Assembly: GCA_902775605.1 (NCBI GenBank)
Contig: CACYNE010000011.1
Location: 1 to 63,571, forward strand
Length of the DNA: 63,571 bases
From: an uncultured Prevotellaceae bacterium
GTDB lineage: Bacteria > Bacteroidota > Bacteroidia > Bacteroidales > Bacteroidaceae
Direction: 5' to 3'
Below are positions 5,021-38,540 of the stretch, piece by piece; within the stretch, counting starts at the first letter, position 1, and every line of letters starts with the position of its first letter. Both the position numbers and the translations under genes were made by a program. Below the pieces are notes generated by a model. The model did not search any database. It worked only from the letters and a program-made list of their open reading frames with translations, and was not told where the DNA came from.

Positions 5021-5045
5021 TGTGCACTATATATAAATGTGAGTG

Positions 5046-5053: not shown

Positions 5054-5096
5054 CCTATTTTTCTGCGATTATCACTGCTTTTAAAAATATTTTTTG

Positions 5097-5104
5097 TAAA
5101 TTTG
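5097..5104 (+). promoter_or_regulatory. -7 element of the TraB/GumN gene promoter
   Basis: TAAATTTG, about 76 bases upstream of the gene start. The leader this produces contains the short ORF at 5142-5183. Confidence 0.55.
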
Positions 5105-5141
5105 CACTGTAATATTGCATTCAAACTAAAACTATACAATT

Positions 5142-5183
5142 ATGAAAGTCCTGACTTTGCAGGCTCTACCATTAAAAAGATGA
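5142..5183 (+). CDS. Possible 13-residue leader peptide coupled to the TraB/GumN gene
   Basis: An ATG opens a frame encoding MKVLTLQALPLKR. Its TGA stop overlaps the ATG of the next gene (ATGA at 5180-5183), the classic layout for translational coupling. The ORF lies inside the leader implied by the -7 element at 5097-5104. It has no recognisable regulatory codon run, so it may be chance; the stop/start overlap is the only positive evidence. Confidence 0.3.
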   Translation: MKVLTLQALPLKR

Positions 5184-6037
5184 GGAAAATACTATCATTA
5201 TTGCTGCTCACTTTCATGGCTATGAACATGACAGCACAAGAAGGAACAAAGACTGGCTGGCTGTGGGAAGTGAGCGGCAATGGGCTCGCCCAAAAGTCCT
5301 ATCTTTTCGGCACCTGCCACGGTGACGGGCACGATTTCACTCGTGAGGAGGTGTTTGGCATTAGCGGTTTGGACGATGCGCTGAACAATGTGAAGATTGC
5401 GCTATACGAAGGGGGTATGAATAAAGAGACTTCCGAAACCGACTCTGCTGAAATGATTTCCGAATTAGAAAAAATGAAGAAAATGATGAAGCATCCAGGG
5501 CAGGAGCTCATGATGCCAGAGGGAGCATATTACAAACCACTATTCGACACAGTGGCGCATTTCAACGAGGTCAACAATTTCCTAACTTATCAGATGAAGG
5601 ATAACGAGTACTGGAAAAAGAACCCACGCTACTGGTTAATCCGTATGCGTTTATATATCGCTTTCGCCATGAGGCGGGGAACCCCGTTAGACGTTATACT
5701 GAATCAGGAAACAGTCAATCGTGGCATCGAGACGCGATTTAACAATGACAGTGTGACAAATTTTTTTCGGGCTTTTGCCGACATCTATTTGAAGAACGAC
5801 ACCTGCATGATGTGGAACTATTTGAATGAGGCCGGATTTGTAGCCGGTGCAGAATCGGAGGATGACAATGGCCATGAGATTCTGCATGACCGAAACGTAA
5901 AGTGGATTCCCGTCATTATGAAGAATATTGCCGAGGCCCCTTGCATAGTTGCCGTAGGCTGCCGCCACCTGATGGGCAGAGAATCTTTGATAGCCTTGCT
6001 TCGGCGGGAAGGCTATACAGTCGAGGCCGTAAAATAA
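5180..6037 (+). CDS. TraB/GumN family protein, secreted
   Basis: A 285-residue protein with a signal peptide (residues 1-19, ending MNMTAQ). The family motifs are present: SYLFGTCHG near the N-terminus and the C-terminal CIVAVGCRHLMGRESLIALLRREGYTVE, equivalent to the GumN 'VGAGHL.G..SL...L...GY' signature. TraB/GumN proteins are thought to be metal-dependent peptidases related to the Tiki/EreA fold; the substrate here is unknown. The ATG at 5180 is chosen because it directly precedes the signal peptide; a longer upstream reading overlaps ridA antisense. A damaged copy of its 5' end lies at 3571-3810. Confidence 0.85.
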   Translation: MRKILSLLLLTFMAMNMTAQEGTKTGWLWEVSGNGLAQKSYLFGTCHGDGHDFTREEVFGISGLDDALNNVKIALYEGGMNKETSETDSAEMISELEKMKKMMKHPGQELMMPEGAYYKPLFDTVAHFNEVNNFLTYQMKDNEYWKKNPRYWLIRMRLYIAFAMRRGTPLDVILNQETVNRGIETRFNNDSVTNFFRAFADIYLKNDTCMMWNYLNEAGFVAGAESEDDNGHEILHDRNVKWIPVIMKNIAEAPCIVAVGCRHLMGRESLIALLRREGYTVEAVK

Positions 6038-8959: not shown

Positions 8960-11536
8960 ATGACTGCAACAAAGAGACTTTTCGTGGCGAGCATGGCCTG
9001 GCTGCTTATGGTGGCAATGGGCTGCGCTCAGGAGATGAAGCCTGTTGACCTGACCAAGGCAACCATTGTGTATTGCAAGAATGAGGCACCACTGGTGAGG
9101 CACATTGCTCAGGTGATGGCCGACGACATAGAGCGCGTGTCGGGCGTGCGCCCTAAGGTCGTGGAGAAGCGCAGTTATTATCAGTTGGCCTATGAGGCAT
9201 CGACTGAGAAGAACCGCATCCAGCTGCTCACGGCCCAAAGGCCCCATCAACTGTATGGCAAATGGGAGCACTACGTGATTGACACTCGCGACGGCAACCT
9301 GTTTATCACTGGCTCAGACCCTCGTGGCGTGGCCTATGGCGTGTTGCATGTGAGCGAGAAGATAGGCGTGAGTCCCTGGTATTGGTTTGCCGACGTGCCT
9401 GTGGACAAGAGCAACCGACGGGTGTATGCCTATGCCGAGCATCTTGAGAGCGGTCCCGCGGTGAAGTATCGCGGCATCTTCATCAACGACGAAGACTGGG
9501 GACTGAAGGTGTGGGCCGAGAAGAACTATGAAAAGGATTTGGGCGACATTGGTCCGAAGACCTATGACCGAGTGTGCGAACTGCTCCTCAGGTTGAGTGC
9601 CAACATGCTAGCTCCAGCCATGCATACCTGCACGGGGGCTTTCTTTTCGCATCCCGAGAGTCAGAAGGTGGCAGCCAAATGGGGCATCATGATTACCACG
9701 AGCCATTGCGAGCCGCTGCTTTTCAACAATGCTGCACCTTCGGAATGGGACAAGGCGCGCGACGGCGAATGGAACTATGAGACGAACAGCGCCACCATCC
9801 TGAAGAAACTGGACAACCGCATTCGCGAGACGGCTGCATACGACAATATCTATACGATGGGACTGCGCGGACTGCATGACGAGGCCATGAAGGGCAGCAC
9901 CAACCCCAAAGACCGCGCCCGCACGCTGGAGAAGGTGTTTGACAAACAGCGCGGCATCCTGAAAAAATATAAGAAGGGGAAGGTGGAGAAGATTCCGCAG
10001 ATATTTGTACCCTATAAGGAGACGATGGATATCTATGAGAACGGCCTGGAGGTGCCCGACGACATCACGCTGGTGTGGGTGGACGATAACTACGGATATA
10101 TGAAGCGGGTGGCCAATCCCGAGGAACAGAAGCGTTCGGGCCGTTCGGGTGTGTATTATCACCTGAGTTACCTGGGGGCTCCGCACGACTACCTGTGGCT
10201 GAACACCACGCCGCCCGTGCTGATGTTTGAGGAACTGCGCAAGGCCTATGACAACGGGGCTGACCGCTATTGGTTGCTCAATGTGGGCGACATCAAGCCG
10301 ATGGAACTGGGCATGCAGACGTTCTTCGACATGGCGTGGACTATCGACCGTAACGAGGACCTGAGCTTTTCAATCGATGATGCCTATGAGCATCAGGCCG
10401 ACTTCCTGACCAGCATCTTTGCCCCAAGCATCGGGGGAAAGAACGCTCAGGCGCAGGCTGTCAGAAAGCAGCTGCAGATGATTCTCGACGACTATTATCG
10501 ATTGGCATGGAGCAGAAAGCCGGAGTATATGGGATGGGAGTATCAATGGGACGACAAAGCTCATACGGGGCTGAAATCCAGCGAGTTCTCATTTAAGCAT
10601 TATAGTGAGGCTCAACGCCGACTGGCCGACTATCAGCGCATCAGCAACGAGGTAGAGCGACTGGGCGAGATGATTAGCAAGCACGACAAGGCATATGCGC
10701 CAGCCTTCTTCGAACTGGTGCAGTTTCCTGTTCAGGGGGCTTATCAGATGAACCGCAAGTTCCTCATGGCGCAACTCAACCAGGAGATGGCTGCCGACGG
10801 ACGCTATGATGAGGCTAACTGGGCGGCCCGTCAGATGGAAGAGGCATACGACAGCATCAACTCCCTGATGCTGCGCTATAACCGTCAGCTCGACGGCAAA
10901 TGGGATGGAATGATGGCACTTGCCACGAGTTTCACGCCAACCTGTCAGTTCTACCAGAAGCCTGAGGTGAAGCGCTTCGAAGGGGTGGGCGAGAAGGCCG
11001 TGCTACTGGTGCCGCTCAGGGTGGAGCAGGAGAGTGAAGGCTATTGTGTGATAGACCTGAACAGTTTTCGCCACCAGAATCGGTCGGAGGGCGTGAGGGT
11101 CATCAACGGCCTGGGCTATGATGGCCAGGTGCTTCAGTTTGGCGACCCATCGAAGGAGCCTGCTGACGGAAAGAAGGAGACCATCACCTATTCATTCAAA
11201 GCTATCAAGGACTCTGTGGATATCGTTATCTATGCCGTGCCTTTCTGGCCACTATACAAAGGAAAATCGAATGGCATTGGTGTGAGCATAGACAACGGGC
11301 CTGTGCAGGTTTTTGAGAATAGGTTCAAGGAGTATGATCGCACCTGGAAGGACCAGGTGATGAGAAACGGAATCATGTGTCGCTTGCGCTTTGCGGTGGA
11401 CACTAACCGCGAACAGAACCGTCTGCGCATCTCTGCTGATCCCGGGCAGATGATTCAGCGCATCATCCTCGATTGGGGCGGACTGGAACCGACGTATGTC
11501 GGTCCAGCCGTACCCCCTCGAAGAGGAATTTATTAG
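8960..11536 (+). CDS. GH115 family xylan alpha-1,2-glucuronidase
   Basis: An 858-residue secreted enzyme with a signal peptide and possible lipobox (MVAMGC, Cys22), which would place it on a membrane surface. The body matches GH115 from recall: the YGVLHVSEKIGVSPWYWFADVP segment, the RGIFINDEDWGL loop and YHLSYLGAPHDYLWLNT. GH115 enzymes release 4-O-methylglucuronic acid side chains from xylan. The gene converges with, and overlaps by 4 bases, an esterase gene of matching purpose. No promoter is visible in the 15 bases after the yjjG-like pseudogene, so it may depend on that gene's promoter. Confidence 0.9.
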   Translation: MTATKRLFVASMAWLLMVAMGCAQEMKPVDLTKATIVYCKNEAPLVRHIAQVMADDIERVSGVRPKVVEKRSYYQLAYEASTEKNRIQLLTAQRPHQLYGKWEHYVIDTRDGNLFITGSDPRGVAYGVLHVSEKIGVSPWYWFADVPVDKSNRRVYAYAEHLESGPAVKYRGIFINDEDWGLKVWAEKNYEKDLGDIGPKTYDRVCELLLRLSANMLAPAMHTCTGAFFSHPESQKVAAKWGIMITTSHCEPLLFNNAAPSEWDKARDGEWNYETNSATILKKLDNRIRETAAYDNIYTMGLRGLHDEAMKGSTNPKDRARTLEKVFDKQRGILKKYKKGKVEKIPQIFVPYKETMDIYENGLEVPDDITLVWVDDNYGYMKRVANPEEQKRSGRSGVYYHLSYLGAPHDYLWLNTTPPVLMFEELRKAYDNGADRYWLLNVGDIKPMELGMQTFFDMAWTIDRNEDLSFSIDDAYEHQADFLTSIFAPSIGGKNAQAQAVRKQLQMILDDYYRLAWSRKPEYMGWEYQWDDKAHTGLKSSEFSFKHYSEAQRRLADYQRISNEVERLGEMISKHDKAYAPAFFELVQFPVQGAYQMNRKFLMAQLNQEMAADGRYDEANWAARQMEEAYDSINSLMLRYNRQLDGKWDGMMALATSFTPTCQFYQKPEVKRFEGVGEKAVLLVPLRVEQESEGYCVIDLNSFRHQNRSEGVRVINGLGYDGQVLQFGDPSKEPADGKKETITYSFKAIKDSVDIVIYAVPFWPLYKGKSNGIGVSIDNGPVQVFENRFKEYDRTWKDQVMRNGIMCRLRFAVDTNREQNRLRISADPGQMIQRIILDWGGLEPTYVGPAVPPRRGIY

Positions 11537-25892: not shown

Positions 25893-25924
25893 TTTGGAAA
25901 TATCACAAACTATTTGTATCTTTG
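25893..25924 (+). promoter_or_regulatory. Promoter of the kinase-AAA-FHA-phosphatase operon
   Basis: TTTG at 25893-25896 (-33), a 20-base spacer and TATCTTTG at 25917-25924 (-7), 31 bases before the first ATG. It is the only clear promoter I see before 38.5 kb on this strand. Confidence 0.7.
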
Positions 25925-25955: not shown

Positions 25956-26879
25956 ATGACAGAAGAAAGAACCGTACAATCAGACCAGATACAAAGGGAA
26001 CTGGAACTGCAAAGGCAGAATGAGCAACCTATGATGCAGCAGCAAATGCAGATGCAGGCAGATTCTGCTAATGGTGTGGTTTGTCCTAAATGTGGTACCG
26101 TGAACGAACCCGAGGCTCAGTTTTGTGCTTCCTGTGGTGAACCTTTGCATATGGCTGTCTGCCCAAGTTGTGGCAGCGAGATAGATCCAGATGCTGATTT
26201 CTGTGAGGTGTGCCATCATTATATCAAGCAGGACGTGTGTTCTTTCTGCGGAGCAGATTTCGGTCCCTATGATGGATATTGCCCACAGTGTGGCATGCCT
26301 CGTGGCGGTATCGTTTGTCCAGCTTGCCATACACTTAACGACTTCTCATTTTGTAAGCAGTGTGGTCAGCCCCTGACAGCAGAAGCAAAGAGCATCTTGA
26401 AAGAAATGCGCGAGCTGCCTGAGTATAAGGAACTGATGGCCCTGTCTCGTGAGTATAACGAGTTGCAAATGCAGCTGCCCTATGAGACGGAACAGGACAA
26501 ACAGCGTGGTGACGCATTGCATAGCCTCCGGGAGCGTGTTCTTCAGTTGCTGGCAGAGGATGAGGGTGAAGAGTTCCCCGAAATCCCTGCACCTCACAAG
26601 AAGCGCGTTACCAAGGAAGAACTGCATGAGAGTAAACAACGTAAGCTGGATCAGTTGGCTGAGTTGCTTAGCAGAATGTCTATTCCTCCACAGGCATCGC
26701 CTGCTAAGGTTAGAAACTTTGCTATGGCACAGAAGCCTGCTGGTGTCAGACTGGCATGGAAGTGTAATTATAAAAATGCCCTCCACTCAAGTCCCTGTGG
26801 ATGCGCGAAGCCTCAAATGGGTGGTACCTGGGTAATATTGGGACATAATTCTAAGCAGGAAATCAAGGACGACAAATAA
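25956..26879 (+). CDS. Multi-zinc-ribbon protein, first gene of the phospho-signalling operon
   Basis: A 307-residue cytosolic protein. A Gln/Met-rich N-terminus (about 10-40) is followed by about five consecutive CxxC-type zinc-ribbon knuckles (about 43-140: CPKCGTVNEPEAQFCASCG, CPSCG...CEVC, CSFCG...CPQCG, CPAC...CKQCG), as in double zinc-ribbon (DZANK-like) proteins. A charged coiled-coil-prone region (about 145-245) and a short Cys-containing end (HSSPCGCAKPQMGG) complete it. I know no assigned function. Its TAA overlaps the kinase ATG (TAATG), so expression is coupled to the kinase. The ribbon type recurs in the AAA+ and FHA proteins of the operon, which suggests a shared docking mode. 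Confidence 0.85.
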   Translation: MTEERTVQSDQIQRELELQRQNEQPMMQQQMQMQADSANGVVCPKCGTVNEPEAQFCASCGEPLHMAVCPSCGSEIDPDADFCEVCHHYIKQDVCSFCGADFGPYDGYCPQCGMPRGGIVCPACHTLNDFSFCKQCGQPLTAEAKSILKEMRELPEYKELMALSREYNELQMQLPYETEQDKQRGDALHSLRERVLQLLAEDEGEEFPEIPAPHKKRVTKEELHESKQRKLDQLAELLSRMSIPPQASPAKVRNFAMAQKPAGVRLAWKCNYKNALHSSPCGCAKPQMGGTWVILGHNSKQEIKDDK

Positions 26880-29800
26880 TGGCAGACGATAATCTTGAAA
26901 AAACGACAGTGATGGGCGGCGGCGGTGATACTACTGACGACTTGGATAAAACCACTGTGCTAGACAAGACTACTATCATGGATGGTGATAAGACCACTGT
27001 GATGGATAGAACAACCATAATGGATGGTGATAAGACCACTATGATGGACAGAACAACCATAATGGATGGTGATAGAACAACTGTTATGGATGGTGACAGA
27101 ACAACCGTTATGGAGAGAACCACCGTGCTGGATGGCGATAAGACTTCTGTCATGAAGGATAGTTCCGTTGATGATGACCAGTATGACGATGCAGGTGATA
27201 GGACCATGGCCTATGGCAGCGGTGACTCTATGGAAACAACGATGCGCCCAGATACTGGCATGTCAGATTCCGAAATGGTTGGTCCTGTCAATAATGTATT
27301 CAACCTTCGTGGTGATGAATACGAACAGGTCTCTGTGTTGAGCGAGAATACTGGTGAGGCACAGGTGTTTTTGGTTAAGAAAGATGGTAAGGAGTTCGTC
27401 CTGAAGCTATATTATCCCAACTTTGATATTAATAAGAAGCTGCTGCAGGTAGTACGCTCTTTCGACTTTGAGATGATTGTTAATTTGATCGACTACGGTA
27501 AGACGTATGTCGATGGAAAGAATCGTCAGTATGAGTTGATGGAGTATCTGAAGGGTGGAACACTGAAGGATGTCAAGTTGAAAGGAGACTTCAATCGTTT
27601 CCGTCGTTTGGCCTTACAGGCCGCTGCAGCTTTGGCTTACTGTCATAAAAGCTATGTACTGCATAAGGATGTAAAACCCACCAACTATTTCTTCCGTGAT
27701 GAGGAACAAAAAGAGTTGGTCTTGGGTGACTTCGGTATTTCATCTTTGCAGGATGCTCCTGGAAAATCGTTCCGTACTACTCAGGCCCGTACTCCTATTT
27801 ATGCTGCGCCTGAGATGTACACCGACGTGATTGATGGCGTGGTAGAGATTACCTATGCCGCCGACTTCTATTCGTTGGGTATGACGCTGTTTGCACTCTG
27901 GTTGGGCGAAAGTCCAATGAGTACTAACGAGCGTACCATGATGAAGCAGAAGAACGAAGGTCGTCTACCTCGTTTGAATGAATTGCCTGACAGGGTGAAG
28001 CAGATTGTGCAGGGCTTGACCTCTGTAAATCAGCAAACACGTTGGGGATACGATGAAGTGGAGCGTTGGTTCAAAGGTGAGGATGTCGCAGTTGATATCT
28101 CATCACCTTTCTTGCGTTATAAGAGTTTCGTAGTTGACCCCGAACGTAACCTTATTGCAGAGAATGTTCATGAGTTGGTGCCCTTACTGCTGGACAACGA
28201 GCAGTTGGGTATGAACTACCTGTATAACGGACGTATCATCTCCTGGCTGGAATCGAGTGGCAATGTGAAGATGTCTGCCATTGTGAAGGATATTGTCCAG
28301 AACAGATATCCTAACGATCAGCGCGCAGGCTTGTATGCCAGTTGCTATGCGATGGAGCCCACGATGAACTATCGTGATGTGAGCAACGATGAGTGCGAGG
28401 ATGTGATGGCCATCGCAATGTCCTTGTTGACCTATCAGGAGAAATATGCTATTATGCTGACCAATCCTCATGATTCACTCTTCTTGTGGCTTGAGGCACG
28501 TGGCATAGGTGACGTGAAGCGTCTGCGTAAATATTTTGATGGTGCTCTGGATGCCAAGGTGGCAGTGCTCAGAATGATCTATGAATTGGATGCAAACATT
28601 CCATTCTTAGCTCATCTCCCTTCAATGTCTGTGGAAGAGATTGTTCACTCTTTCGGACATGAGCAGGTAAGGGATGATGACTGGCATGCTCTGTGTGATG
28701 GTCGTCTGCTGTCGTGGCTCTATTCACATGAGGACCTGACTATCTGCGAAAAGGTGCGCTTGCTAACAGAGAAGCAACCGTTCTCAATGTCATTGGCATA
28801 TAAGGTGCTCTATTCTATCGAACCTTTTGCTGCCTATGACCTGAAGGAAGCAACCACACCGGAGAAGATTGGTGCCTTGCTGGTTCATGAACTCATCAAA
28901 TGTCAGCGCATGTCGGAAGAAGAACTGGCAGAATTGATGGTAGAATATACAGATCCCAATGGACGCTTTTGCTTCTATGCCCGTCAGTATGGATGGAATG
29001 ATTTGGTAAACGAAGCAGGTCGTTGCTTTGATCTGATGTCGGAAGAAAACCATGAGCGTTTGGGGGCATATGATCTACATACAGCACTTTATCGCTTCTG
29101 CTGCATATTGGGTTGCAAGCCAGTATATTATTTGCAGAATGGTACTACGTTGACTGATGGCAGAAATTTGGATTCAAAGAAAATGCCCCAAATACGTACT
29201 GAAATGCGCAATGGTTCATTGACTCAATGGATGTCTGTGTTCTATCATGAAGACCCTTCACAGTTCTTCGATGAGGACTATAGTTATGAGCAAGAACTGG
29301 CAGAGTGGGTGAAAGCCTTAGGTGAGCTTGATCCTCAGCAAAACTACTTCCGTCGTTACAAGAAAGCAATGACAGAAACAGAAGATCGCATTAATCAGGT
29401 TCGCGTAGAGTGGCGCTCTGCTCATTATCGAGAGGAAATCTGTCGCATGTCATTCTTTGTATTGAGTGGATTGTGGGCATTGATGGTGCTGGTATTAGGT
29501 CTTGATGATCGTACTTATATTTTCAGACATCATGTGATGTGTATTATTCTTCCTTTGGGAGGTATGACGGGTGTTATTATTGCTTCTCGCTCATATTTCA
29601 GGGGAATAGGTGCTTTCTTCTCATTGATAATTGGAGGATTAGGCTTGTTGACATCCTATATACCTTACTATGTATTGAATTATGTGAACAACAATTACCC
29701 AGGATGGTTCCATGCAGCAGTTTTGGGATTTACGGCTATTTATGTAGCGGTAGCTAAGCTAACAGACTTTAGTCGCGATCAGAAATTGGATAAGAAATTT

Positions 29801-30079
29801 GTAAATCAGGCCTTGGAAGAGCAGGATATCAAGACAACGTTGTTGGAACCGCTTTATTTTGCTTTCAAAACAAAGTCTCAACGCTACAAAGCCACGCATT
29901 TCAGTGTGCTTGATGAGATAGAAGACCATATTAATTCTTTGTCGGGCGAGTCCGTGATTCACTATATCCTGTGGTCATTGCTGGCTCTTGTCATGATCTT
30001 AGAGTTGTGCCTGTTCAGTCCTCATGTAGTAGGTTGGAAGCAAGCAGCAAGTGCTCATAAAACTGAGAGTGTAAAATGA
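26879..30079 (+). CDS. Membrane Ser/Thr protein kinase with an N-terminal TTxxD/E array
   Basis: A 1066-residue Hanks-type kinase. Residues 24-85 hold nine copies of [KR]TT-x-[ML]-[DE]. The kinase domain (about 145-400) has the ATP lysine Lys176 (FVLKLY), catalytic loop HKDVKPTN (Asp264), DFG (Asp284), an activation loop with FRTTQARTP, and APE (Glu312), so it should be active. A long helical region (about 410-850) with no known domain follows, then a hydrophobic region of about four helices (857-960) and a last helix (about 1026-1048). In each motif the second Thr has Asp or Glu at +3, the classic FHA ligand once phosphorylated, and an FHA protein is encoded two genes downstream. Start and stop both overlap the neighbours (TAATG and ATGA). 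Confidence 0.92.
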   Translation: MADDNLEKTTVMGGGGDTTDDLDKTTVLDKTTIMDGDKTTVMDRTTIMDGDKTTMMDRTTIMDGDRTTVMDGDRTTVMERTTVLDGDKTSVMKDSSVDDDQYDDAGDRTMAYGSGDSMETTMRPDTGMSDSEMVGPVNNVFNLRGDEYEQVSVLSENTGEAQVFLVKKDGKEFVLKLYYPNFDINKKLLQVVRSFDFEMIVNLIDYGKTYVDGKNRQYELMEYLKGGTLKDVKLKGDFNRFRRLALQAAAALAYCHKSYVLHKDVKPTNYFFRDEEQKELVLGDFGISSLQDAPGKSFRTTQARTPIYAAPEMYTDVIDGVVEITYAADFYSLGMTLFALWLGESPMSTNERTMMKQKNEGRLPRLNELPDRVKQIVQGLTSVNQQTRWGYDEVERWFKGEDVAVDISSPFLRYKSFVVDPERNLIAENVHELVPLLLDNEQLGMNYLYNGRIISWLESSGNVKMSAIVKDIVQNRYPNDQRAGLYASCYAMEPTMNYRDVSNDECEDVMAIAMSLLTYQEKYAIMLTNPHDSLFLWLEARGIGDVKRLRKYFDGALDAKVAVLRMIYELDANIPFLAHLPSMSVEEIVHSFGHEQVRDDDWHALCDGRLLSWLYSHEDLTICEKVRLLTEKQPFSMSLAYKVLYSIEPFAAYDLKEATTPEKIGALLVHELIKCQRMSEEELAELMVEYTDPNGRFCFYARQYGWNDLVNEAGRCFDLMSEENHERLGAYDLHTALYRFCCILGCKPVYYLQNGTTLTDGRNLDSKKMPQIRTEMRNGSLTQWMSVFYHEDPSQFFDEDYSYEQELAEWVKALGELDPQQNYFRRYKKAMTETEDRINQVRVEWRSAHYREEICRMSFFVLSGLWALMVLVLGLDDRTYIFRHHVMCIILPLGGMTGVIIASRSYFRGIGAFFSLIIGGLGLLTSYIPYYVLNYVNNNYPGWFHAAVLGFTAIYVAVAKLTDFSRDQKLDKKFVNQALEEQDIKTTLLEPLYFAFKTKSQRYKATHFSVLDEIEDHINSLSGESVIHYILWSLLALVMILELCLFSPHVVGWKQAASAHKTESVK
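26943..27165 (+). repeat. Tandem coding repeat of the TTxxD/E motif
   Basis: DNA-level imperfect repeats of 18 and 24 bases encode the alternating KTTxMD and RTTxMD units of the kinase N-terminus. Copy number is a likely source of strain variation. Confidence 0.85.
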
Positions 30080-33000
30080 TTTGTGAAATTTGTCATAAGG
30101 AAAATAGGAACAACGCCAAGTTCTGTAAATGGTGCGGACAGCCCCTTGTGTCGCAGCATGTGCTTGACAAGCTGGTTGGCTTGAAGGATGTAAAGAGCCA
30201 GCTTAAGACCATTGTCGATACATATGCTTATTTGCGTACGCGCAAGGATATTTCGACCATTCGTCTTTCCGTAAACGCCATTATTATTGGTGAGACAGGT
30301 ACGGGTAAGACTGCGTTGGCTGAGATTATTCGTGACTATTTCTATCAGCATAAGATTCTGGAGAAGCCCAAGCTGACAATGGTGGACGCTGTGGACTACC
30401 AGCGTTTTGTTGACCAGTGGGACGATAATATTAAGAAGGCTCGTAATGGTATTCTCTTCTTTGATAATGTTCAGAAGCTTTTGCCAGATAAGTATTCTAA
30501 TCAGGTGAATCCACTGGACAAGTTGTTCGTGGAAATGGATAAGTGGGAGGGTAATCCCATTGTGGTGATGGCTGGTCTGCCTAAGGGTTTTGAGGAATTC
30601 TTAGAGAATAACCCTGCTGTGAAGAACCGCTTCAAATATATGTTCTATCTTCCCACGCCTAATTTTCAGGAGTTATGTGACATTGCCAAACTGCAGTTGC
30701 GTACGAAGTATAGCTTAACATCATTCACAGAGGAGGCAGACAAACAACTGGCTCGCTATTTCAAGTATCAGATAAAGATAAAGGATGAGACCTTTGGTAA
30801 TGCTCATTTGGCCATGAAGACTGCTGAGGACATCTTCACCTCTTTTATTAGTAGGGGTGCTCATGATTCTATGGTAGAGAAAGAGGACATCAGGGGTTAT
30901 GTCCCAGAGGAGAGAAGCCTTGATCAGATTCTGAGTGATTTGGATACGTTCATTGGCATGAACGATGTGAAGCAAGCTGTCAGAGAGATGGCTTACTCTG
31001 TGCAGAATGATATGCAACGTGCAGAACGTGGGCTGGGCGAGTTCCAGAAGATGTCGATGCATATTGTGCTGACTGGTAATCCAGGTACAGGTAAAACGAC
31101 CATTGCCCGTAAGTTGGGAGAGATTCTGGCCGCCATTGGATATCTGGATTCTGGACATGTCGTTGAAGTTGACCGATCAAAGATGGTGTCACCTTATCAG
31201 GGTGAGACACCTAAACTGGTAAATCAGTTATGCGACAAGGCCATGGGTGGTATCCTCTTTGTTGACGAGGCTTATACGTTAGCTCCTGTCAGCCAGGCTG
31301 GTGAACGCGATGCTCAGGGTGCCCAGGCACTTGAGACCTTGATGAAGCGCATGGAGGATGATCGCGGTAAGTTTGTGGTTATTGCCGCAGGTTATCGTAT
31401 GGAGATGGATAATCTGTTCCGCATCAATCCGGGCATGCGTAGCCGCTTCAACTATTTCCTGAATTTGGAAGACTACAATCCTGATGAGCTGTTCCAGATT
31501 CTGCAGGTATTTGCAAGTGGCAAGAAATACCAGTTCAAGGAAGAGGCAGAGGCTTTGGTTCGCAAGATGATAAAAGAGATGTATAACTCTCGCGACAAAG
31601 ATTTTGCCAATGGACGAACGATGCGTTCTTTGTTTGATGAGATGTGTAAGCGTCAGGCTCGCAGATTGCAGCAGGGCGATGTCTCTCAGATGAGCAATGA
31701 TGAACTGATGACTTTTGTTGAGGAAGATATTCCTTACGAGGCACCACAAGCCGTTGACTATTCTGAATGTCTGAAGAAGTTTGATGGCATGGTGGGACTG
31801 GATTCTGTTAAGAGAGAGATTTCTAATTTGGCAGCATTCCTCACTCTGCAAATCAAGCGCGGAGAAACAAATACGTTCCAAGGCAAGCATTACGTGTTTA
31901 CTGGTAATCCTGGTACAGGTAAGACCACGGTAGCACGTATCATGGCAGATGTTTTCAAGACCTTGGGTATTCTGTCTCGTGGTCAGTTGGTAGAAGCAGA
32001 CCGTTCGAAATTGGTTGCTGGCTTCGCTGGTCAGACAGCTATTAAGACCAATCAATTGATAGACTCTGCTATGGGAGGCGTTCTCTTTATTGATGAGGCC
32101 TATACTTTGAAATCCGGTGACAACGATTCGTTTGGCGCAGAAGCTATTGATACATTGTTGAAGAGATTGGAGGATGATCGTGGTAAGTTTATCTGTATTG
32201 TTGCTGGTTATACAGACAACATGCACGACTTTATAGATTCTAACCCAGGACTGAAGAGCCGCTTTACGCAAACCATCCATTTCGAAGACTATACTGCTGA
32301 CGAACTGACGCAGATCTTTGTCAATATGGCTACAGCGAAGAGTTTCGTTGTTGATGATGAGATGAAAACGGCTGTTCATCGTCTCTTTGAACAACTCTAT
32401 CTGCGTCGAGACAAGAACTTTGGTAATGCGCGCGAGGCACGTCGTATCTTTGACCAGACGGTGGAGCGTCAGAGTCAGCGACTGGTTAAGCAGATGAACC
32501 AGCCAGGTGTTCAGGTGTGTGATGATGATGCTGATGGATTCCAATTCGATGATATGTATCGTTTCACAGTGGACGATCTGCCATCAGCACAGGGTGCAGC
32601 TGGACCTACACGTTCACTGGATGAAGTGCTTAATGAGTTGGATGACTTTATTGGTATGCGTTCGGTCAAGAATGCCATCCGTCGCTTGGCTGTACAGAGC
32701 ATGTTTATCAAGCAGCGTGCGGCAATGGGTGCAGGTAGTGTTCAGCAGATGAGCATGAACTTCATCCTGACAGGTAATCCAGGTACTGGTAAAACATCTA
32801 TCGCTCGTAAGATGGGTGAAGTATTACAAGCAATTGAAGTACTCCCCACAGCCAATGTCGTAGAGGCAAGTCGTGCAACACTGGTTGGTAAATACATGGG
32901 TGAGACTCCTAAGATTGTCAATGCCATGTGTGACAAGGCTATGGGTGGTATCTTGTTCATTGATGAGGCTTATACCTTGTCCGACCAAAACGATCAATAT

Positions 33001-33426
33001 GGCAAGGAGGCTATCGATACGCTGATGAAGCGCATGGAGGATGATCGTGGAAAGTTTGTAGTGATTGCTGCTGGCTATCAGGATAAGATGGATGAGTTCT
33101 TGACAATGAATGCAGGACTGGCCAGTCGCTTTACACACAAGTTACATATTGAGGATTATAATGAGGATGAGTTGCTGGCAATCTTCAAGAAGATGGCCGA
33201 GAAAGAGCAGTACGTCCTGTCACCCACGGCCGAGTTCAGAGCTCTTGATGTCATCTGTAAGATGCTGAGCAAGAAGGATGAGACCTTTGGCAATGCTCGC
33301 GAGATCAGAAACATGCTTGATGAAACAATTCAGCAGTTGTCTGTCCGTGTGGCAGAAATGCCGCCTGATCAGGTGACGAAAGAAACATATCAGTTAATAC
33401 TTCCAGAAGATATTAAAGAAAGATGA
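30076..33426 (+). CDS. Zinc-ribbon protein with four tandem CbxX/CfxQ-type AAA+ modules
   Basis: An 1116-residue cytosolic protein. A zinc ribbon (Cys3, Cys6, Cys17, Cys20) precedes four AAA+ modules with Walker A at 72-79 (GETGTGKT), 334-341, 610-617 and 900-907 (each GNPGTGKT). Modules 2-4 have intact Walker B (ILF-V/I-DEAYTL). Module 1 has ILFFDN at 126-131, with Asn in place of the catalytic Glu, so it probably binds but does not hydrolyse ATP. The modules resemble the CbxX/CfxQ/SpoVK/EccA group, which remodel Rubisco or serve type VII secretion; neither system is present here. ATGA overlaps link it to the kinase before and the FHA gene after, fixing both ends. Confidence 0.92.
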   Translation: MICEICHKENRNNAKFCKWCGQPLVSQHVLDKLVGLKDVKSQLKTIVDTYAYLRTRKDISTIRLSVNAIIIGETGTGKTALAEIIRDYFYQHKILEKPKLTMVDAVDYQRFVDQWDDNIKKARNGILFFDNVQKLLPDKYSNQVNPLDKLFVEMDKWEGNPIVVMAGLPKGFEEFLENNPAVKNRFKYMFYLPTPNFQELCDIAKLQLRTKYSLTSFTEEADKQLARYFKYQIKIKDETFGNAHLAMKTAEDIFTSFISRGAHDSMVEKEDIRGYVPEERSLDQILSDLDTFIGMNDVKQAVREMAYSVQNDMQRAERGLGEFQKMSMHIVLTGNPGTGKTTIARKLGEILAAIGYLDSGHVVEVDRSKMVSPYQGETPKLVNQLCDKAMGGILFVDEAYTLAPVSQAGERDAQGAQALETLMKRMEDDRGKFVVIAAGYRMEMDNLFRINPGMRSRFNYFLNLEDYNPDELFQILQVFASGKKYQFKEEAEALVRKMIKEMYNSRDKDFANGRTMRSLFDEMCKRQARRLQQGDVSQMSNDELMTFVEEDIPYEAPQAVDYSECLKKFDGMVGLDSVKREISNLAAFLTLQIKRGETNTFQGKHYVFTGNPGTGKTTVARIMADVFKTLGILSRGQLVEADRSKLVAGFAGQTAIKTNQLIDSAMGGVLFIDEAYTLKSGDNDSFGAEAIDTLLKRLEDDRGKFICIVAGYTDNMHDFIDSNPGLKSRFTQTIHFEDYTADELTQIFVNMATAKSFVVDDEMKTAVHRLFEQLYLRRDKNFGNAREARRIFDQTVERQSQRLVKQMNQPGVQVCDDDADGFQFDDMYRFTVDDLPSAQGAAGPTRSLDEVLNELDDFIGMRSVKNAIRRLAVQSMFIKQRAAMGAGSVQQMSMNFILTGNPGTGKTSIARKMGEVLQAIEVLPTANVVEASRATLVGKYMGETPKIVNAMCDKAMGGILFIDEAYTLSDQNDQYGKEAIDTLMKRMEDDRGKFVVIAAGYQDKMDEFLTMNAGLASRFTHKLHIEDYNEDELLAIFKKMAEKEQYVLSPTAEFRALDVICKMLSKKDETFGNAREIRNMLDETIQQLSVRVAEMPPDQVTKETYQLILPEDIKER

Positions 33427-34016
33427 TTATTTGTCCAAACTGTAAAGAAGAAATAGACGACGATTCCCATTATTGTGATCAATGTGGTCAGATGTTGACC
33501 TATTGTGAAAAGTGTGGACGAGTGGGAATGGGACGACGTTGCACATCATGTGGAGGCCTGATGCTTTCTGCTGAAGACTTCCATAATCGAGGTGCTAATA
33601 GCATGAGTGTGTCTATGTCAATGGGCATGTCACAAGGTTTTATCTCTACCTCTCAGCGTTATCTGAATACAACGGGTGGCAGACAGGCTAATCCTGGAAC
33701 ACCACAGCGTACGGGCATTCCTCAGCTCTTGCTTTACAATGATTCTATTGGTATCCGCGTAATAGGTATCAGTGGTGCAATCATTGGCAGACGTCAAGGG
33801 CCCTATGTGCAGTTCTTCCAACAACAGAAGTATATGTCGGGTGTTCATGCACAACTAATGTTCTATCCTGAGACGGGATGGCATATTGTTGACAAGCATT
33901 CATCCAATGGAACAAAGTTGAATGATCACAAACTGCAGCCTGATGTTGAGATGTCGTTGAAGAATGGTGATATCGTAACGTTAGCGAATGTTATATTGAA
34001 AGTTAGTATCAATTAA
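33423..34016 (+). CDS. Zinc-ribbon plus FHA domain protein
   Basis: A 197-residue cytosolic protein. Two zinc-ribbon knuckles lie at the N-terminus (Cys4, Cys7, Cys18, Cys21, then Cys28, Cys31, Cys40, Cys43). A Met/Ser-rich linker (about 50-105) leads to an FHA domain (about 108-197) with GRRQG (Gly122, Arg123), the phosphothreonine loop SGVH (Ser139, His142) and SNGT (Asn162, Gly163). The usual Arg of SxxH (often SRxH) is Gly here; the other contacts are kept. FHA domains read pThr, preferring Asp, Ile or Leu at +3. With the kinase's TTxxD/E array in the same operon, it is the obvious reader. It begins at an ATGA overlap with the AAA+ gene. Confidence 0.9.
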   Translation: MIICPNCKEEIDDDSHYCDQCGQMLTYCEKCGRVGMGRRCTSCGGLMLSAEDFHNRGANSMSVSMSMGMSQGFISTSQRYLNTTGGRQANPGTPQRTGIPQLLLYNDSIGIRVIGISGAIIGRRQGPYVQFFQQQKYMSGVHAQLMFYPETGWHIVDKHSSNGTKLNDHKLQPDVEMSLKNGDIVTLANVILKVSIN

Positions 34017-34027
34017 AGGAAAATATA

Positions 34028-34777
34028 ATGGCACATTTTCTTATTACAGCATCAAGCAGAGTTGGATGCGTCAGAGCAAACAATGAGGATATGATTATGC
34101 TTGATCACGAATTTATTCGTGATGCTGTCGATAGTAAAACCATAGATCTTGCCAGCACTGATCGCATGATGCTGGCATTGGCAGATGGCATGGGGGGACA
34201 TAAATGCGGTGAGGTGGCCAGTTCGGAGGTGCTTCACAGCTTGCGTTACTTCTTTGGTGACCTGCCAGGAAACTTAAAATCAAACGACTTCTTCGAAAAC
34301 ATTCGCAAGTGGTTGATGAGCATCAGTATTGAAATCAATTCACGTGGAATGGTAAATCCAGCGTATTCGGATATGGGTACCACATTGGTGGGACTCACGT
34401 ATCTTGCTGGAGAGTTTTACTGGATGAATTGCGGAGATAGTCGTTTGTATAGACTTCACAACGGAGAATTAAAACAACTCACAACGGATCATTCTCTTAG
34501 TCAGGTACTCGGACTGAAGGAACATTCCAGTCAGATTGTGAATTGTATTGGTGGAGGTTGCAAGGATTGTTATATAGATATCGAGAAATGTAGCGACCAG
34601 ATAGAGCCGGGCGATACGCTGTTGATATGTAGTGATGGCCTGACAGATATGGTTAGTGACAACATCATCTGTCAGCGACTGTTGGATGGATGTGATGCTG
34701 ATACGCTCTGCCAGATGGCTGAGGATGCCGGTGGCTTTGATAATGTGTCAGTAATTGTTGTTCACGTAGAAGAATAA
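34028..34777 (+). CDS. PP2C-family Ser/Thr protein phosphatase
   Basis: A 249-residue single-domain phosphatase with all metal ligands of the PPM family: NED (Asp21), ADGMGGH (Asp53), GDSR (Asp137), SDGLTD (Asp203) and the final FDNVS (Asp238). It is soluble and cytosolic. It starts 11 bases after the FHA stop and is the natural eraser for phosphorylation by the operon's kinase. Bacterial kinase/PP2C/FHA sets are known in type VI secretion and in mycobacterial PknB/PstP circuits, but here no secretion genes accompany them. Confidence 0.95.
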   Translation: MAHFLITASSRVGCVRANNEDMIMLDHEFIRDAVDSKTIDLASTDRMMLALADGMGGHKCGEVASSEVLHSLRYFFGDLPGNLKSNDFFENIRKWLMSISIEINSRGMVNPAYSDMGTTLVGLTYLAGEFYWMNCGDSRLYRLHNGELKQLTTDHSLSQVLGLKEHSSQIVNCIGGGCKDCYIDIEKCSDQIEPGDTLLICSDGLTDMVSDNIICQRLLDGCDADTLCQMAEDAGGFDNVSVIVVHVEE

Positions 34778-34790: not shown

Positions 34791-35708
34791 ATGCCTTTAA
34801 GATTACCAGACAGATTGCCTGCGATAGATATTCTGAAGAATGAGAATATCTTTGTGATGGATAACTCGCGGGCTCATGCGCAGGACATTCGTCCATTGCG
34901 CATTGTTATTTTGAACCTGATGCCCCTGAAGATAACGACAGAAACCGACTTGGTTCGTTTGCTGTCGAATACGCCTCTTCAGTTGGATATCAATTTTATG
35001 AAATTAAAGAGTCATACGCCCAAGAATACACCTATTGAGCATATGATGATGTTTTACCGCGACTTTGAATCAATGCGTAATGAGAAGTTCGACGGAATGA
35101 TTATTACTGGTGCTCCAGTAGAGACAATGGATTATGAGAAGGTGACCTATTGGGACGAGATTGTTGACATTTTCAATTGGGCTCGTACTCACGTCACCAG
35201 TACACTTTATATCTGTTGGGCTGCTCAGGCCGGACTCTATCATTATTATGGTGTCCCCAAGTATCCACTTGACAAGAAGATGTTTGGCATCTTCGAACAA
35301 CATACCCTGCAGCCTAAGATGCCTATCTTCCGCGGCTTCGATGATAAATTCATGATGCCTCATAGCCGTCATACGGAAGTGAGGAAGGAAGATATCCTGG
35401 CTCGTCCGGAATTGCAGCTGATTGCCGAGTCGGAAGATAGTGGCGTCAGCATCGTGATGGGACGCAATGGCCGAGAGTTCTTTATTACAGGACACTTGGA
35501 GTATGCGCCAAACACACTCGATACGGAGTATAAGCGAGACTTTGGTGTGCGAGATGATGTAGAGATGCCCCTCAATTATTATCGAAATGACGACCCGAAG
35601 CAGCCACCTATGGTAACGTGGCGTGCGCACGCGAACCTCTTTTATAGTAACTGGATTAACTATTACGTCTATCAAGAGACGCCTTACGACATCACAAAGA
35701 TTGGATGA
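34791..35708 (+). CDS. metA: Homoserine O-acyltransferase MetA, predicted acetyl-CoA specific
   Basis: A 305-residue MetA-family enzyme of normal length for the first committed step of methionine synthesis. The catalytic Cys142 lies in YICWAAQAG, and ITGHLEY supplies the active-site His. Residue 111 is Glu (GAPVET). Published work on Bacillus cereus MetA showed that Glu at 111 gives acetyl-CoA use, while Gly gives succinyl-CoA use, so this should be a homoserine O-acetyltransferase despite the usual 'succinyltransferase' label. It starts 13 bases after the PP2C stop with no visible promoter or terminator between, and overlaps the next gene (ATGA). Confidence 0.95.
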   Translation: MPLRLPDRLPAIDILKNENIFVMDNSRAHAQDIRPLRIVILNLMPLKITTETDLVRLLSNTPLQLDINFMKLKSHTPKNTPIEHMMMFYRDFESMRNEKFDGMIITGAPVETMDYEKVTYWDEIVDIFNWARTHVTSTLYICWAAQAGLYHYYGVPKYPLDKKMFGIFEQHTLQPKMPIFRGFDDKFMMPHSRHTEVRKEDILARPELQLIAESEDSGVSIVMGRNGREFFITGHLEYAPNTLDTEYKRDFGVRDDVEMPLNYYRNDDPKQPPMVTWRAHANLFYSNWINYYVYQETPYDITKIG

Positions 35709-37513
35709 GACAACTTGAACTGCTGGCTCCTGCCAAGAATTTGGAATGCGGTATGGCTGCCATTGATCATGGGGCCGATGCCGTCTATATTGGTGCACAG
35801 CGCTTTGGAGCGCGTGCAGCAGTGGGGAATAGTGTTGATGACATCCAGAAACTATGCCAGTATGCGCACCGATTTGATGCAAAGGTCTATGTAACAGTCA
35901 ATACGATTGTCTTTGATGATGAACTTGCCGATACACGTTTGTTGCTTCAGCAATTAGCTGATGCTGGTGTCGATGCCGTCTTGGTGCAGGACATGGGTGT
36001 GATGCAGATGGCAAAAGAAATTGGCTTGACTGTTCATGCGAGCACCCAAACAGACAATCGCACTGCCGACAAGGTGCGTTGGCTCAGTTCTTTAGGTATG
36101 GCTCGTGTCGTTCTGGCTCGCGAACTCTCTGTGAGTGAAATCGCAGATATTCATCGTCTGGTGCCAGAAACAGAACTGGAGGTCTTTGTTCACGGAGCCT
36201 TGTGTGTCAGTTATAGCGGACTCTGTTATGCCTCGCAATATTGTTTTGGACGCAGTGCCAATCGTGGTGCCTGTGCTCAATTCTGCAGAATGAAGTTTGA
36301 TTTACTTGATGCTGATGGTGAGATGCTCGACAGTCAGCGTTATTTCCTGTCGCTCAAGGATATGAATCAGAGTAACCATCTTGCAGAACTGATTGAAGCA
36401 GGTGCTGTCTCTTTCAAGATAGAAGGTCGCTTGAAGGATGTGACCTATGTTAAGAACGTGACGGCAGCCTATAGTGAATTGCTCAATGACTATATTCATC
36501 ATCATCCCAAAGACTACGAACGTGCTTCCAAGGGCCGATGCACCTATACCTTCAAACCTGATTTGCGAAAGACATTCAATCGTGGTTATACCACATATTT
36601 CCTGAATGGCCGACAGCCCAATATTGCCTCCTTCGATACGCCAAAGGCTATGGGAGAGTTTGTGGGTACGGTGAAAGAGATTCGCGGACATTCATTTAAT
36701 GTGGCCGGTGTTGCATCGTTTAGTAATGGCGATGGACTATGCTTCGTGAACGATAAGCGCGAACTGGAAGGTTTCCGTGTAAACAGGGTAGAGGGCAATC
36801 GCCTCTTTCCGTTGAAGATGCCTGATAACTTGCGCCCTGGTCTTCGCCTGTATCGCAATAATGATCAGGAGATGGAACGCCTGCTCTCCAAACCCAGTGC
36901 CGAACGTAAGATACCTGTGCGGATGGCAATTCGTGCCACCGCCGATGGCTTCTCTTTGCAGATGGGTGAGGTTGTAGCAAGTATTGTTGCTGAGCATCAA
37001 GAGGCTCAGAAAGATCCGCGCGAGAATATTATTCGTCAGTTAACAAAGCTTGGAGGTACGCCTTACGAGTGTTCGGAGGTGGACATCCCTGCTGATTTCA
37101 ATTACTTCATCCCGTCGAGTCTGCTCGCAGACCTAAGACGACAGGTTGTTTCTTTGGGAGAAACAAAGAGTCTGTCTGTGACAAACAAAGAGTCTGTCAG
37201 TAACAAACAAGCCGTTTCTTATATAGAAACATATCAGAACAAGTATCTTTATAATGTGTCGAACCATTTGGCTCGTCAGTTCTATGAGCAACAAGGCGTC
37301 GAAGTGAGTGATGCTTTTGAGGTCTGTCCTCAGAAGGGTCCCATCATGCAGTGCCGTCATTGCCTGCGTTATTCCCTTGGGTTCTGTGTGAAGAATGGTG
37401 GACGCAGACCAGAGTGGAAGGAACCTCTTTCATTGCGATTGGGCGACGGACGGACGTTCCGTCTGGAGTTTGACTGTAAGCATTGTCAAATGAATGTGTA
37501 TGCCAATGAGTAA
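35705..37513 (+). CDS. U32 family peptidase / RlhA-like protein
   Basis: A 602-residue protein of the U32 family with its extended C-terminal part. The N-terminal barrel begins ELLAPAKNLECGMAAIDHGADAVYIG and carries the family signature ELEVFVHGALCVSYSGLCYASQ; the second Cys group is near SANRGACAQFCR, and a C-terminal set (CPQKGPIMQCRHC, LGFCVKNGG) completes the likely Fe-S ligands. E. coli RlhA and TrhP of this family act in rRNA or tRNA hydroxylation, so an RNA-modification role is more likely than proteolysis. A Ser/Lys/Asn-rich insert (near 490-505) is not typical. It overlaps metA at the start and the next gene at the end. Confidence 0.88.
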   Translation: MRQLELLAPAKNLECGMAAIDHGADAVYIGAQRFGARAAVGNSVDDIQKLCQYAHRFDAKVYVTVNTIVFDDELADTRLLLQQLADAGVDAVLVQDMGVMQMAKEIGLTVHASTQTDNRTADKVRWLSSLGMARVVLARELSVSEIADIHRLVPETELEVFVHGALCVSYSGLCYASQYCFGRSANRGACAQFCRMKFDLLDADGEMLDSQRYFLSLKDMNQSNHLAELIEAGAVSFKIEGRLKDVTYVKNVTAAYSELLNDYIHHHPKDYERASKGRCTYTFKPDLRKTFNRGYTTYFLNGRQPNIASFDTPKAMGEFVGTVKEIRGHSFNVAGVASFSNGDGLCFVNDKRELEGFRVNRVEGNRLFPLKMPDNLRPGLRLYRNNDQEMERLLSKPSAERKIPVRMAIRATADGFSLQMGEVVASIVAEHQEAQKDPRENIIRQLTKLGGTPYECSEVDIPADFNYFIPSSLLADLRRQVVSLGETKSLSVTNKESVSNKQAVSYIETYQNKYLYNVSNHLARQFYEQQGVEVSDAFEVCPQKGPIMQCRHCLRYSLGFCVKNGGRRPEWKEPLSLRLGDGRTFRLEFDCKHCQMNVYANE

Positions 37514-38492
37514 AGCATATATATATATAATAGGTGTATTAAGCCTGCTGTTCAGCAGTTGTTATCATCAGGAGCCGGAAACGTCTGATGCCTGGATAGT
37601 GACGGAGGAGCAGATGGACTCCATCTCGTTCTATACCACGCATCACTATACGCAGAACTATAACTTCCTGGTGACGGCCGATTCTTTGAGCCTCATTGTG
37701 CAGCAGCCTTCAGAATTGCTCAGCGAAATGCTTGTTGACACCATCGTGGTGCATCATGAAGACCGCCTTGTCGTGGCAGACATTATGACCCTGCCTTCTG
37801 ATACGATAGACTCTGTATGGGTGCAGGTGGCTCGCGACCAGATGACGATAGGTTGGATTCGTGAGAAAGAGATGCTGACGGGTGTGGCTCCAGACAATCC
37901 CATCTCCCAGTTTATTGACTTCTTCTCCGACACCCACTTGTTGCTCATGTTGGCATTCTGGGTCGTTGTGGCAGCCATCTATACGATATGGGCGCTGGCG
38001 CGACGAAATGCAAAGATTGTGCATTTCAACGATATCCCATCGTTCTATCCCACGCTTCTGGCCCTTTTCGTGTCTGCGTCAGCAGTGTTCTATAGCACCA
38101 TTCAACTTGTTGCCCCAGACTCTTGGCGCCATTATTATTACCATCCCACGCTGAATCCCTTTGCTGCGCCGTTGCATCTCAGCGTGTTTATTATCTCTGT
38201 CTGGGGACTGTTGCTCATCTCTTTGGCTGCAGTCGATGATATCCGCCGACATCTGTCGTTGGGCGAGACCATTCTCTACGGATTGGGTTTGATGGGTGTT
38301 TGTGCCATAAATTATGTGGTGTTCAGTATCACCACCTTATATTATATAGGATATCCCCTTCTGGTTCTTTATGCCTATCTTGCCATTCGTCATTATATGC
38401 GAAAAAGTCGTGCCATTTATGTTTGTGGCCGATGTGGCGAGAAACTTTATCAGAAAGGCGTTTGTCCTCACTGCGGAAGCATTAACGTATAG
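37506..38492 (+). CDS. Membrane lipoprotein with C-terminal zinc ribbon, unknown function
   Basis: A 328-residue protein. The signal peptide has a lipobox (LLFSSC). An extracytoplasmic region (about 20-145) precedes four to five hydrophobic helices (about 150-300), and the end is a zinc ribbon (CGRCGEKLYQKGVCPHCG), which should face the cytosol or the periplasm depending on helix count. I recognise no family. I chose the ATG at 37506, which overlaps the U32 stop by 8 bases. The ribbon echoes those in the kinase operon upstream on the same strand, so it may belong to the same system. Confidence 0.75.
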   Translation: MSKAYIYIIGVLSLLFSSCYHQEPETSDAWIVTEEQMDSISFYTTHHYTQNYNFLVTADSLSLIVQQPSELLSEMLVDTIVVHHEDRLVVADIMTLPSDTIDSVWVQVARDQMTIGWIREKEMLTGVAPDNPISQFIDFFSDTHLLLMLAFWVVVAAIYTIWALARRNAKIVHFNDIPSFYPTLLALFVSASAVFYSTIQLVAPDSWRHYYYHPTLNPFAAPLHLSVFIISVWGLLLISLAAVDDIRRHLSLGETILYGLGLMGVCAINYVVFSITTLYYIGYPLLVLYAYLAIRHYMRKSRAIYVCGRCGEKLYQKGVCPHCGSINV

Positions 38493-38494
38493 AT

Positions 38495-38540
38495 AATAAA
38501 AAAGCCTTTGGAAATGAACTTATTTCCAAAGGCTAATTTT
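38495..38540. terminator. Bidirectional Rho-independent terminator
   Basis: A 13-bp perfect stem (38503-38515 with 38522-38534, loop of 6) is flanked by A-rich sequence on the left and TAATTTT on the right. It ends both the long plus-strand operon and pgk on the minus strand. Confidence 0.85.

Follow-up and report, generated by a model that had tools for sequence, protein, structure and literature searches.

A conserved five-gene module of Bacteroidota links a kinase, an FHA protein and a PP2C phosphatase to a multi-module AAA+ protein: a candidate phosphothreonine switch

We analysed a 63,571-nucleotide stretch of DNA from an uncultured Prevotellaceae bacterium (contig CACYNE010000011.1, positions 1 to 63,571; hereafter the window), in which five adjoining genes encode a zinc ribbon protein (ZnR), a membrane Ser/Thr kinase (KIN), an AAA+ protein (AAA), an FHA protein and a PP2C phosphatase (Table 1). 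We read this set as a candidate phosphothreonine switch. An open reading frame (ORF) check recovered the five genes where a preliminary description of the locus had placed them, all on the + strand and with the same junctions, namely a 1-base overlap between ZnR and KIN, 4-base overlaps between KIN and AAA and between AAA and FHA, and an 11-base gap between FHA and PP2C. For the five proteins in turn, Pfam and NCBIfam called double zinc ribbons, Pkinase, AAA with AAA_lid_6, DZR with FHA, and a Stp1-like PP2C. Zinc ribbons had been claimed for three of the five, and the CxxC counts agree, with eight in ZnR, two in AAA and four in FHA.

Table 1 Genes and other features of the locus, in window coordinates.
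Feature	Position	Strand	Description
Promoter match, Bacteroidota type	25893..25924	+	TTTG, 20 bases, TATCTTTG; ends 31 bases upstream of the first start codon
ZnR gene	25956..26879	+	307 residues; four zinc ribbons with 8 CxxC, then a helical middle part and a Cys/His domain at the C-terminus
KIN gene	26879..30079	+	1066 residues; membrane Ser/Thr kinase
Tandem Thr units of the KIN tail	26897..27154	+	11 x [DE][KR]T[TS]xx, residues 7 to ~92
AAA gene	30076..33426	+	1116 residues; N-terminal zinc ribbon, four CbxX/SpoVK-type AAA modules
FHA gene	33423..34016	+	197 residues; linker between a double zinc ribbon and an FHA domain that has phosphothreonine-binding residues
PP2C (PPM) gene	34028..34777	+	249 residues; Stp1-like PP2C phosphatase
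metA, U32 peptidase-family gene and membrane protein gene	34791..38492	+	outside the conserved module; probably same transcript
metA	34791..35708	+	
Eighth gene of the run	37494..38492	+	membrane protein, C-terminal zinc ribbon
Terminator-like hairpin	38503..38534	+	14-pair stem, after the eight-gene run

With the AAA protein as query, a scan of species genomes found 88 relatives; the best 80 were kept and yielded 79 loci. These loci, titled Prevotella, Xylanibacter, Prevotellaceae or Bacteroidales, are termed Prevotella type here. The order ZnR-KIN-AAA-FHA-PP2C is intact in 76 of them, and the other three are cut by contig ends, two beginning inside KIN and one ending in AAA. A further 31 loci were collected; with L211, a copy of L048, left out, 30 distinct loci remained, the nearest in the genus of the window and the farthest in other classes of its phylum. 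All five genes stand in order in 22 of these 30, contig ends cut six (including L146 and L217, which are pieces of one genome), and only PP2C is missing in two, so that contig ends make up 9 of the 11 order exceptions across both sets. In addition, the distance matrices of the five proteins correlate with r of 0.89-0.97 over 26 loci, the best of 500 permutations reaching no more than 0.53. Because the order is conserved and the distances are correlated, the unit appears to have been inherited largely as one, and its arrangement is evidently not due to chance. Scattered genes in relatives, which the preliminary description had named as a sign against its view, were the opposite of what we found across Bacteroidota, where the linkage is conserved.

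The distribution is nevertheless patchy. A kinase profile detected the module in 7 of 395 phylum genomes, and a second one in 24 of 301 family genomes and 6 of 393 order genomes, the source genome being counted each time. Most of the profile-positive genomes were fetched for context, G075 and G817 not being among them. Neighbouring genes vary between lineages, and the module is seen in several genomic contexts; in the Prevotella-type loci it holds a fixed place among housekeeping genes. Three other views of the module were rejected. AAA alone does not mark it, as 25 of the 36 regions fetched around AAA matches showed no recognisable kinase, FHA or PP2C partner, and a wider pool of CbxX-type AAA genes occurs without the module. 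A fixed genomic partner was not seen either, since no neighbour is common to all lineages, and accessory genes recur in some. As to a mobile-element origin, searches of 72,556 plasmid and 50,697 phage records gave no relative of the kinase middle domain at E <= 0.001.

The kinase scored 99 bits against the Pfam Pkinase cut-off of 31.7, and the Lys, HxD, Asn, DFG and APE motifs were found by script in 78 of 78 kinases, which bears out the earlier call of a Ser/Thr kinase and places it in the Hanks type. An N-terminal tail with Thr repeats (residues 1-~140) precedes the kinase domain (162-394), a helical middle domain (~415-850) and four hydrophobic segments given by simple hydropathy (857-875, 885-903, 907-925 and 1029-1047). 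The middle domain is predicted to be all-helical (predicted local distance difference test score 85.9), with no convincing PDB match and no clear sequence or fold relative; a TPR domain was not detected, only kinase families matching the protein at E 0.1 in Pfam. The kinases of L122, L147 and L148 have an extra C-terminal stretch past the last hydrophobic segment, absent from the aligned Prevotella-type kinases, which is perhaps a sensor.

The units of the tail differ by lineage, and a 98%-identical homologue of the kinase is 22 residues shorter and has fewer of them. Across 88 tails, the motif [DE]-x-T-[VILM]-[RK], often followed by Pro, was seen 174 times against 2.3 expected from composition shuffles; it occurs in 78 of the 88, and elsewhere in the proteins its density is 0.01 per 100 residues. 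The tails do not count as independent, 78 being Prevotella type and 10 others, and the motif was chosen after viewing them, with later loci serving as the out-of-sample check. Within the 88, it is carried by 74 of the 78 Prevotella-type tails (59 with two or more) and by 4 of the 10 others. Out of sample, all five other-class kinases (L165-L169) have three or more motifs, and 4 of the 14 kinases of the later set, with L211 left out, have one or more. Six of the ten motif-free kinases in that set carry other tandem Thr units, such as APQKTA, PEVEKTATA and DGTDV. The tail motif is therefore frequent but not universal outside the Prevotella type. Of 120 database homologues listed, 114 could be read, and 105 of these have a looser form at least twice. 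As for controls, no motif was found in metA (0 of 78) or U32 (0 of 78) proteins; it was found in 57 of 69 ABC-F proteins, at one site where inspected, and in 16 of 66 M13 proteins, so that a single motif means little.

The FHA domain scored 46.2 bits against a Pfam cut-off of 20.7, and the GR, SxxH and NG residues of a putative phosphothreonine reader were found by script in 88 of 91 proteins. In all four other-class loci that have the FHA gene, the FHA protein itself ends in the tail motif (EKTIRV, DATVRV, DKTVRI and EKTVRI). We then scored FHA proteins by windows against their own kinase tail and against unrelated tails in 18 loci. The four other-class FHA proteins matched their own tail better than all 16 unrelated tails, and that of L147 beat all 17; in L148, L203 and L209, the own tail was equalled or exceeded by 3, 1 and 1 unrelated tails. 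Among the Prevotella-type rows, where scores were low, it was equalled or exceeded by 5, 6 and 5 of 12 in L084, L010 and L017, by 1 in L061 and by 0 in L032.

Four AAA and four AAA_lid_6 stretches were assigned to the window AAA protein by Pfam. The NCBIfam models SpoVK, CbbX and EccA all scored over their cut-offs, placing the protein in the CbxX/CfqX family; since these scores sum over four modules, no single equivalog was assigned. The closest solved chains to the modules are CbbX (3zuh/3syk) and EccA1 (9lur). By script, 87 of 91 AAA proteins have four modules, three have five and one (L148) has two, and the N-terminal zinc ribbon is present in all 91. Each module has the Walker A motif GxxGTGKT, and modules 2-4 of the window protein have Asp-Glu in Walker B. 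The first module, in contrast, has Asp-Asn, with Asn in place of the catalytic Glu, in 88 of 91 proteins, whereas all 274 other modules have Asp-Glu. Of the three exceptions, L148 had its first module undetected by the script, the next one (Asp-Glu) being counted, and L122 and L147 were not read by the script and show Glu-Asn and Asp-Ser by eye. In AAA+ proteins, Asn for the catalytic Glu leaves ATP bound and not hydrolysed, and we therefore predict that module 1 binds ATP without hydrolysing it. AAA is also the most conserved of the five proteins, with a mean identity to seven Prevotella-type representatives of 0.81 against 0.53-0.59 for the others. Neither the altered first module nor the Thr-repeat tail of the kinase had been noticed in the preliminary description, though the tail yields the most specific mechanism.

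PP2C scored 45.5 bits against a Pfam cut-off of 24, and its metal-binding motif set was found by script in 72 of 79 proteins, which places it among the PP2C/PPM phosphatases. In the source genome, which is 86% complete, the FHA protein of the module is the only FHA match and its kinase the only one above the Pfam cut-off, another lying below it at 22 bits. ZnR ends, after its ribbons, in a Cys/His domain with the signature W.CN...P..C..P..GG.W (residues 268-292), which is present in 77 of 77 Prevotella-type ZnR rows and in 13 distant loci; the strict signature is not present in L167 and L206-L208, although the ZnR gene is there. Pfam matched only the ribbons of the window ZnR and left this domain unmatched; the domain might be useful for recognising the module.

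The run of genes does not stop at position 34777, where it had first been closed, as metA, a U32 peptidase-family gene and a membrane protein gene continue it with spacings of 13 bases to metA, -4 to the U32 gene and -20 to the membrane protein gene. The hairpin scan of the window gave no hairpin in the PP2C-metA interval. Because of this tight spacing and the hairpin behind the eighth gene, the transcript probably comprises eight genes rather than five; the hairpin total of the window (13) is little above shuffles (mean 9.2, standard deviation 3.2), and the other + strand hairpins are weaker and lie within genes. With the Bacteroidota-type consensus, nine promoter matches were found in the window against a mean of 0.83 in shuffles. 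The match upstream of ZnR makes the single promoter proposed earlier plausible on sequence grounds, and a further one on the + strand falls within the AAA gene (32419-32452). The conserved module is the five genes, and the three downstream genes are not part of it. In Prevotella-type loci, metA, the U32 gene and, after it, the ribbon-bearing membrane protein gene follow the module in 78, 77 and 74 of 79 cases; beyond the genus of the window and these 79 loci, metA was recognised 3' of the module in L142 and L146 only, so that the link to metA is local. The metA product is more likely a homoserine O-acetyltransferase, since it passes the NCBIfam acetyltransferase exception model (483 against 460.5 bits) and falls below the succinyltransferase cut-off (438.3 against 495).

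Several other genes were observed near the module in some lineages. A DUF1963 gene occurs in three lineages (L122:12931-13575, L207:11414-12046, L208:5152-5784 and L216:12790-13428), that of L208 being assigned by similarity to L207. A family of 197-300 residues recurs in four (L122:13587-14396, L207:12990-13583, L208:3615-4208, L209:16971-17873 and L216:13265-14095), with no Pfam match in the two members scanned (L122 and L207). TerB-like genes adjoin the module in two lineages (L207:10535-11374, L208:5824-6663 and L206:15643-16494); the L207 gene matches TerB at E 4.9e-9, and its L206 relative has no Pfam match. A SUKH-like gene lies between ZnR and KIN in L165 (7289-8083), and L168 has a relative in the corresponding position (4665-5198). 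MORN genes adjoin the module in some lineages, and in L122 a separate ORF of 174 residues, AAA-like, follows the AAA gene (10627-11151).

The link between a phosphothreonine writer, reader and eraser and an AAA+ machine has good support at the level of sequence, because the gene order is conserved across classes and the five proteins diverge in correlation. In this regard, the phosphorylation-switched remodelling machine of the preliminary description stands as far as the linked set goes, and the AAA+ protein as its output is what we, too, infer. Our preferred interpretation, to which we assign a probability of slightly under one half (about 0.48), is a self-contained phosphothreonine switch controlling an AAA+ remodelling machine at the inner membrane. 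Specifically, the kinase would phosphorylate the repeated Thr motifs of its own N-terminal tail, and the phosphorylated tail would offer a multivalent docking surface to the FHA protein, whose own C-terminal motif may be a further substrate or ligand in some lineages. Through the zinc ribbons that it has in common with ZnR and AAA, which may form the common scaffold suggested earlier, the FHA protein would bring or license the AAA protein. The latter, with one ATP-binding, non-hydrolysing first module and two to four active CbbX-like modules, would remodel a client, and PP2C would remove the phosphate mark. There is precedent for the docking step in two circuits known from experiment. In PknG, autophosphorylation sites in a flexible N-terminal extension anchor GarA through its FHA domain (PMC8546545), and TM motifs of MST2 are likewise described as binding the FHA domain of SLMAP and bringing PP2A (PMC5663475).

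A number of observations weigh against this switch. Outside the Prevotella type, the strict tail motif is present in 13 of 29 tails (4/10 + 5/5 + 4/14), and the tails of L204, L212, L213 and L215 have no repeated Thr units by eye. TxxD, a Rad53-like motif, was rejected as the tail motif, with 57 seen against 84 expected over 86 tails. The FHA proteins of L122, L207, L208 and L216 gave no clear match to their own kinase tail, which was equalled or exceeded by 4/17, 7/16, 12/16 and 15/17 unrelated tails, and for the FHA linker of the window 12 of 12 unrelated tails were equal or better; the window FHA protein also lacks the tail motif. The PP2C gene is the one missing from L140 and L144, and the PP2C of the module is one of two PP2C matches in the source genome. 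A set of motif-bearing clients was not seen, because the codon pattern for D-K-T-[IV]-R, the one pattern covered, was no commoner in four module-bearing genomes than in the reversed control (44 and 45 hits). Finally, the operon and the ribbons are the sole sequence ties between the AAA and FHA proteins.

Some of these observations would also fit a feedback loop in which kinase, FHA and PP2C tune the kinase alone, and AAA is an assembly or quality factor rather than the output. The motif is carried by the kinase itself, and in four genomes by the FHA protein too, with no genome-wide excess, and in MST2-SLMAP-PP2A a reader brings the eraser to the writer (PMC5663475). We nonetheless regard such a loop as unlikely, since AAA shows the highest conservation in the set, and three modules with intact Walker motifs and a CbbX-like loop sequence exceed what a passive factor would need.

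Another alternative is an anti-phage or conflict system, in which the switch would release harmful AAA-driven remodelling on infection. The PADLOC matches were generic for the kinase and AAA (best 25 of 34 and best 25 of 43), FHA and PP2C had none, and ZnR had one weak match (E 0.094). Moreover, Pfam named no nuclease or other effector domain among the five proteins (for AAA, within the best 25 of 78 families), the module keeps its place among housekeeping genes in Prevotella-type loci, and the middle domain of the kinase has no relative at the threshold used in the plasmid and phage records searched. In favour of a defence role, which we hold to be quite improbable, are the patchy kinase-profile counts, the DUF1963, TerB-like, SUKH-like and MORN genes adjoining the module in some lineages, and the kinase-phosphatase defence module KKP as a known case (PMC11341870).

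The module could also regulate a secretion system encoded elsewhere, along the lines of a threonine phosphorylation pathway of the type VI (T6SS) or type VII (T7SS) secretion system. Kinase/FHA/PPM sets are described as controlling T6SS and accompanying some T7SSc-j (PMC3953482, PMC11217815), and the AAA modules match EccA1. The preliminary description had held that the usual clients are absent, and this stood for the T6SS sheath TssC/VipB (PF05943), which had no match in the source genome at its 86% completeness (the control being positive in E. coli only); the other clients were not searched for. No secretion gene was recognised among the 20 neighbour proteins scanned by Pfam, and none was recurrent, T7SS and type IX secretion genes not being searched for. 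We consider this regulator very unlikely. Metabolic control of methionine or homoserine flux through co-transcribed metA, to which the short gaps and the frequent following of metA, U32 and membrane protein genes in Prevotella-type loci might point, has hardly any prospect given that the metA link does not extend past L142 and L146.

PknG is a soluble kinase, and GarA/OdhI acts on metabolic enzymes. The actinobacterial PknG-GarA/OdhI pair resembles the module in having a kinase with a Thr-bearing N-terminal extension and an FHA protein, which in the case of GarA is itself phosphorylated (PMC8546545). PknG has a helical TPR domain after its kinase domain in that source, whereas KIN has membrane segments, a middle domain without a clear PDB relative or TPR match, and a motif array for which autophosphorylation and FHA binding are predicted; furthermore, AAA, ZnR and PP2C are linked in the module. 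MST2-SLMAP-STRIPAK(PP2A) of Hippo signalling, in which several autophosphorylated Thr motifs of a flexible segment bind a phosphatase-bringing FHA adaptor (PMC5663475), is an analogy and not a relative, being eukaryotic, with PP2A in place of PP2C and without an AAA machine. CbbX, SpoVK and EccA have in common with the module AAA the AAA fold with AAA_lid_6 and the Walker A motif, but the module AAA has several modules per chain, Asn in the first and an N-terminal zinc ribbon. In T6SS, PppA is the phosphatase of the threonine phosphorylation pathway. The PpkA/Fha/PppA and T7SSc-j sets likewise cluster a membrane kinase and FHA, several with PPM/PP2C (PMC3953482, PMC11217815); in our case, TssC was not found in the source genome, and the conserved module includes no secretion gene.

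TerY-P is a kinase/PP2C system. The vWA-MoxR systems are similar to the module in their AAA+ ATPase or kinase/PP2C pairs and zinc ribbons (PMC7159879), and TerB occurs near some module loci; however, no vWA or MoxR match was found by Pfam among the eight operon proteins (within the best 25 of 78 families for AAA), and AAA is of the CbxX type. KKP, a prophage regulatory and defence module, has in common with ours a kinase, PP2C and an FHA domain, but its two short kinases carry fused domains, FHA in the first case and a cold-shock domain in the second, and the text consulted names no AAA or zinc ribbon protein (PMC11341870). Its order, PP2C followed by two short kinase genes, differs from that of the module with its one long kinase gene. 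Among the open-licence PMC papers listed, we found neither a published description of this gene set nor a characterised system that it matches, the latter being a second sign that would have spoken against the earlier proposal. The parts and the logic are known from bacterial kinase/FHA/PP2C control modules; not described within the literature searched are the gene combination, its order conserved between classes, the variable docking array and the AAA chain with an altered module next to active ones.

With the odds against it, the module may further be viewed as a portable signalling machine, with a self-written, tunable phosphothreonine strip, an FHA protein that in some lineages bears this tag as well and so could chain on itself, and a multi-module AAA+ protein with an ATP-held first module. 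The repeat number and sequence of the strip would then evolve by tandem duplication, in what might tentatively be called a minimal self-addressed unit of writer, reader, eraser and motor. Since the only FHA protein and the only above-cut-off kinase of the source genome sit in one module with an AAA motor, five proteins could be enough to reconstitute a whole phosphothreonine circuit. If docking on the tail is true, it would provide a bacterial parallel of the multivalent phosphothreonine docking in Hippo signalling, with an array that changes by tandem repeats. The module also delimits a gene family, for which a client can be looked for directly.

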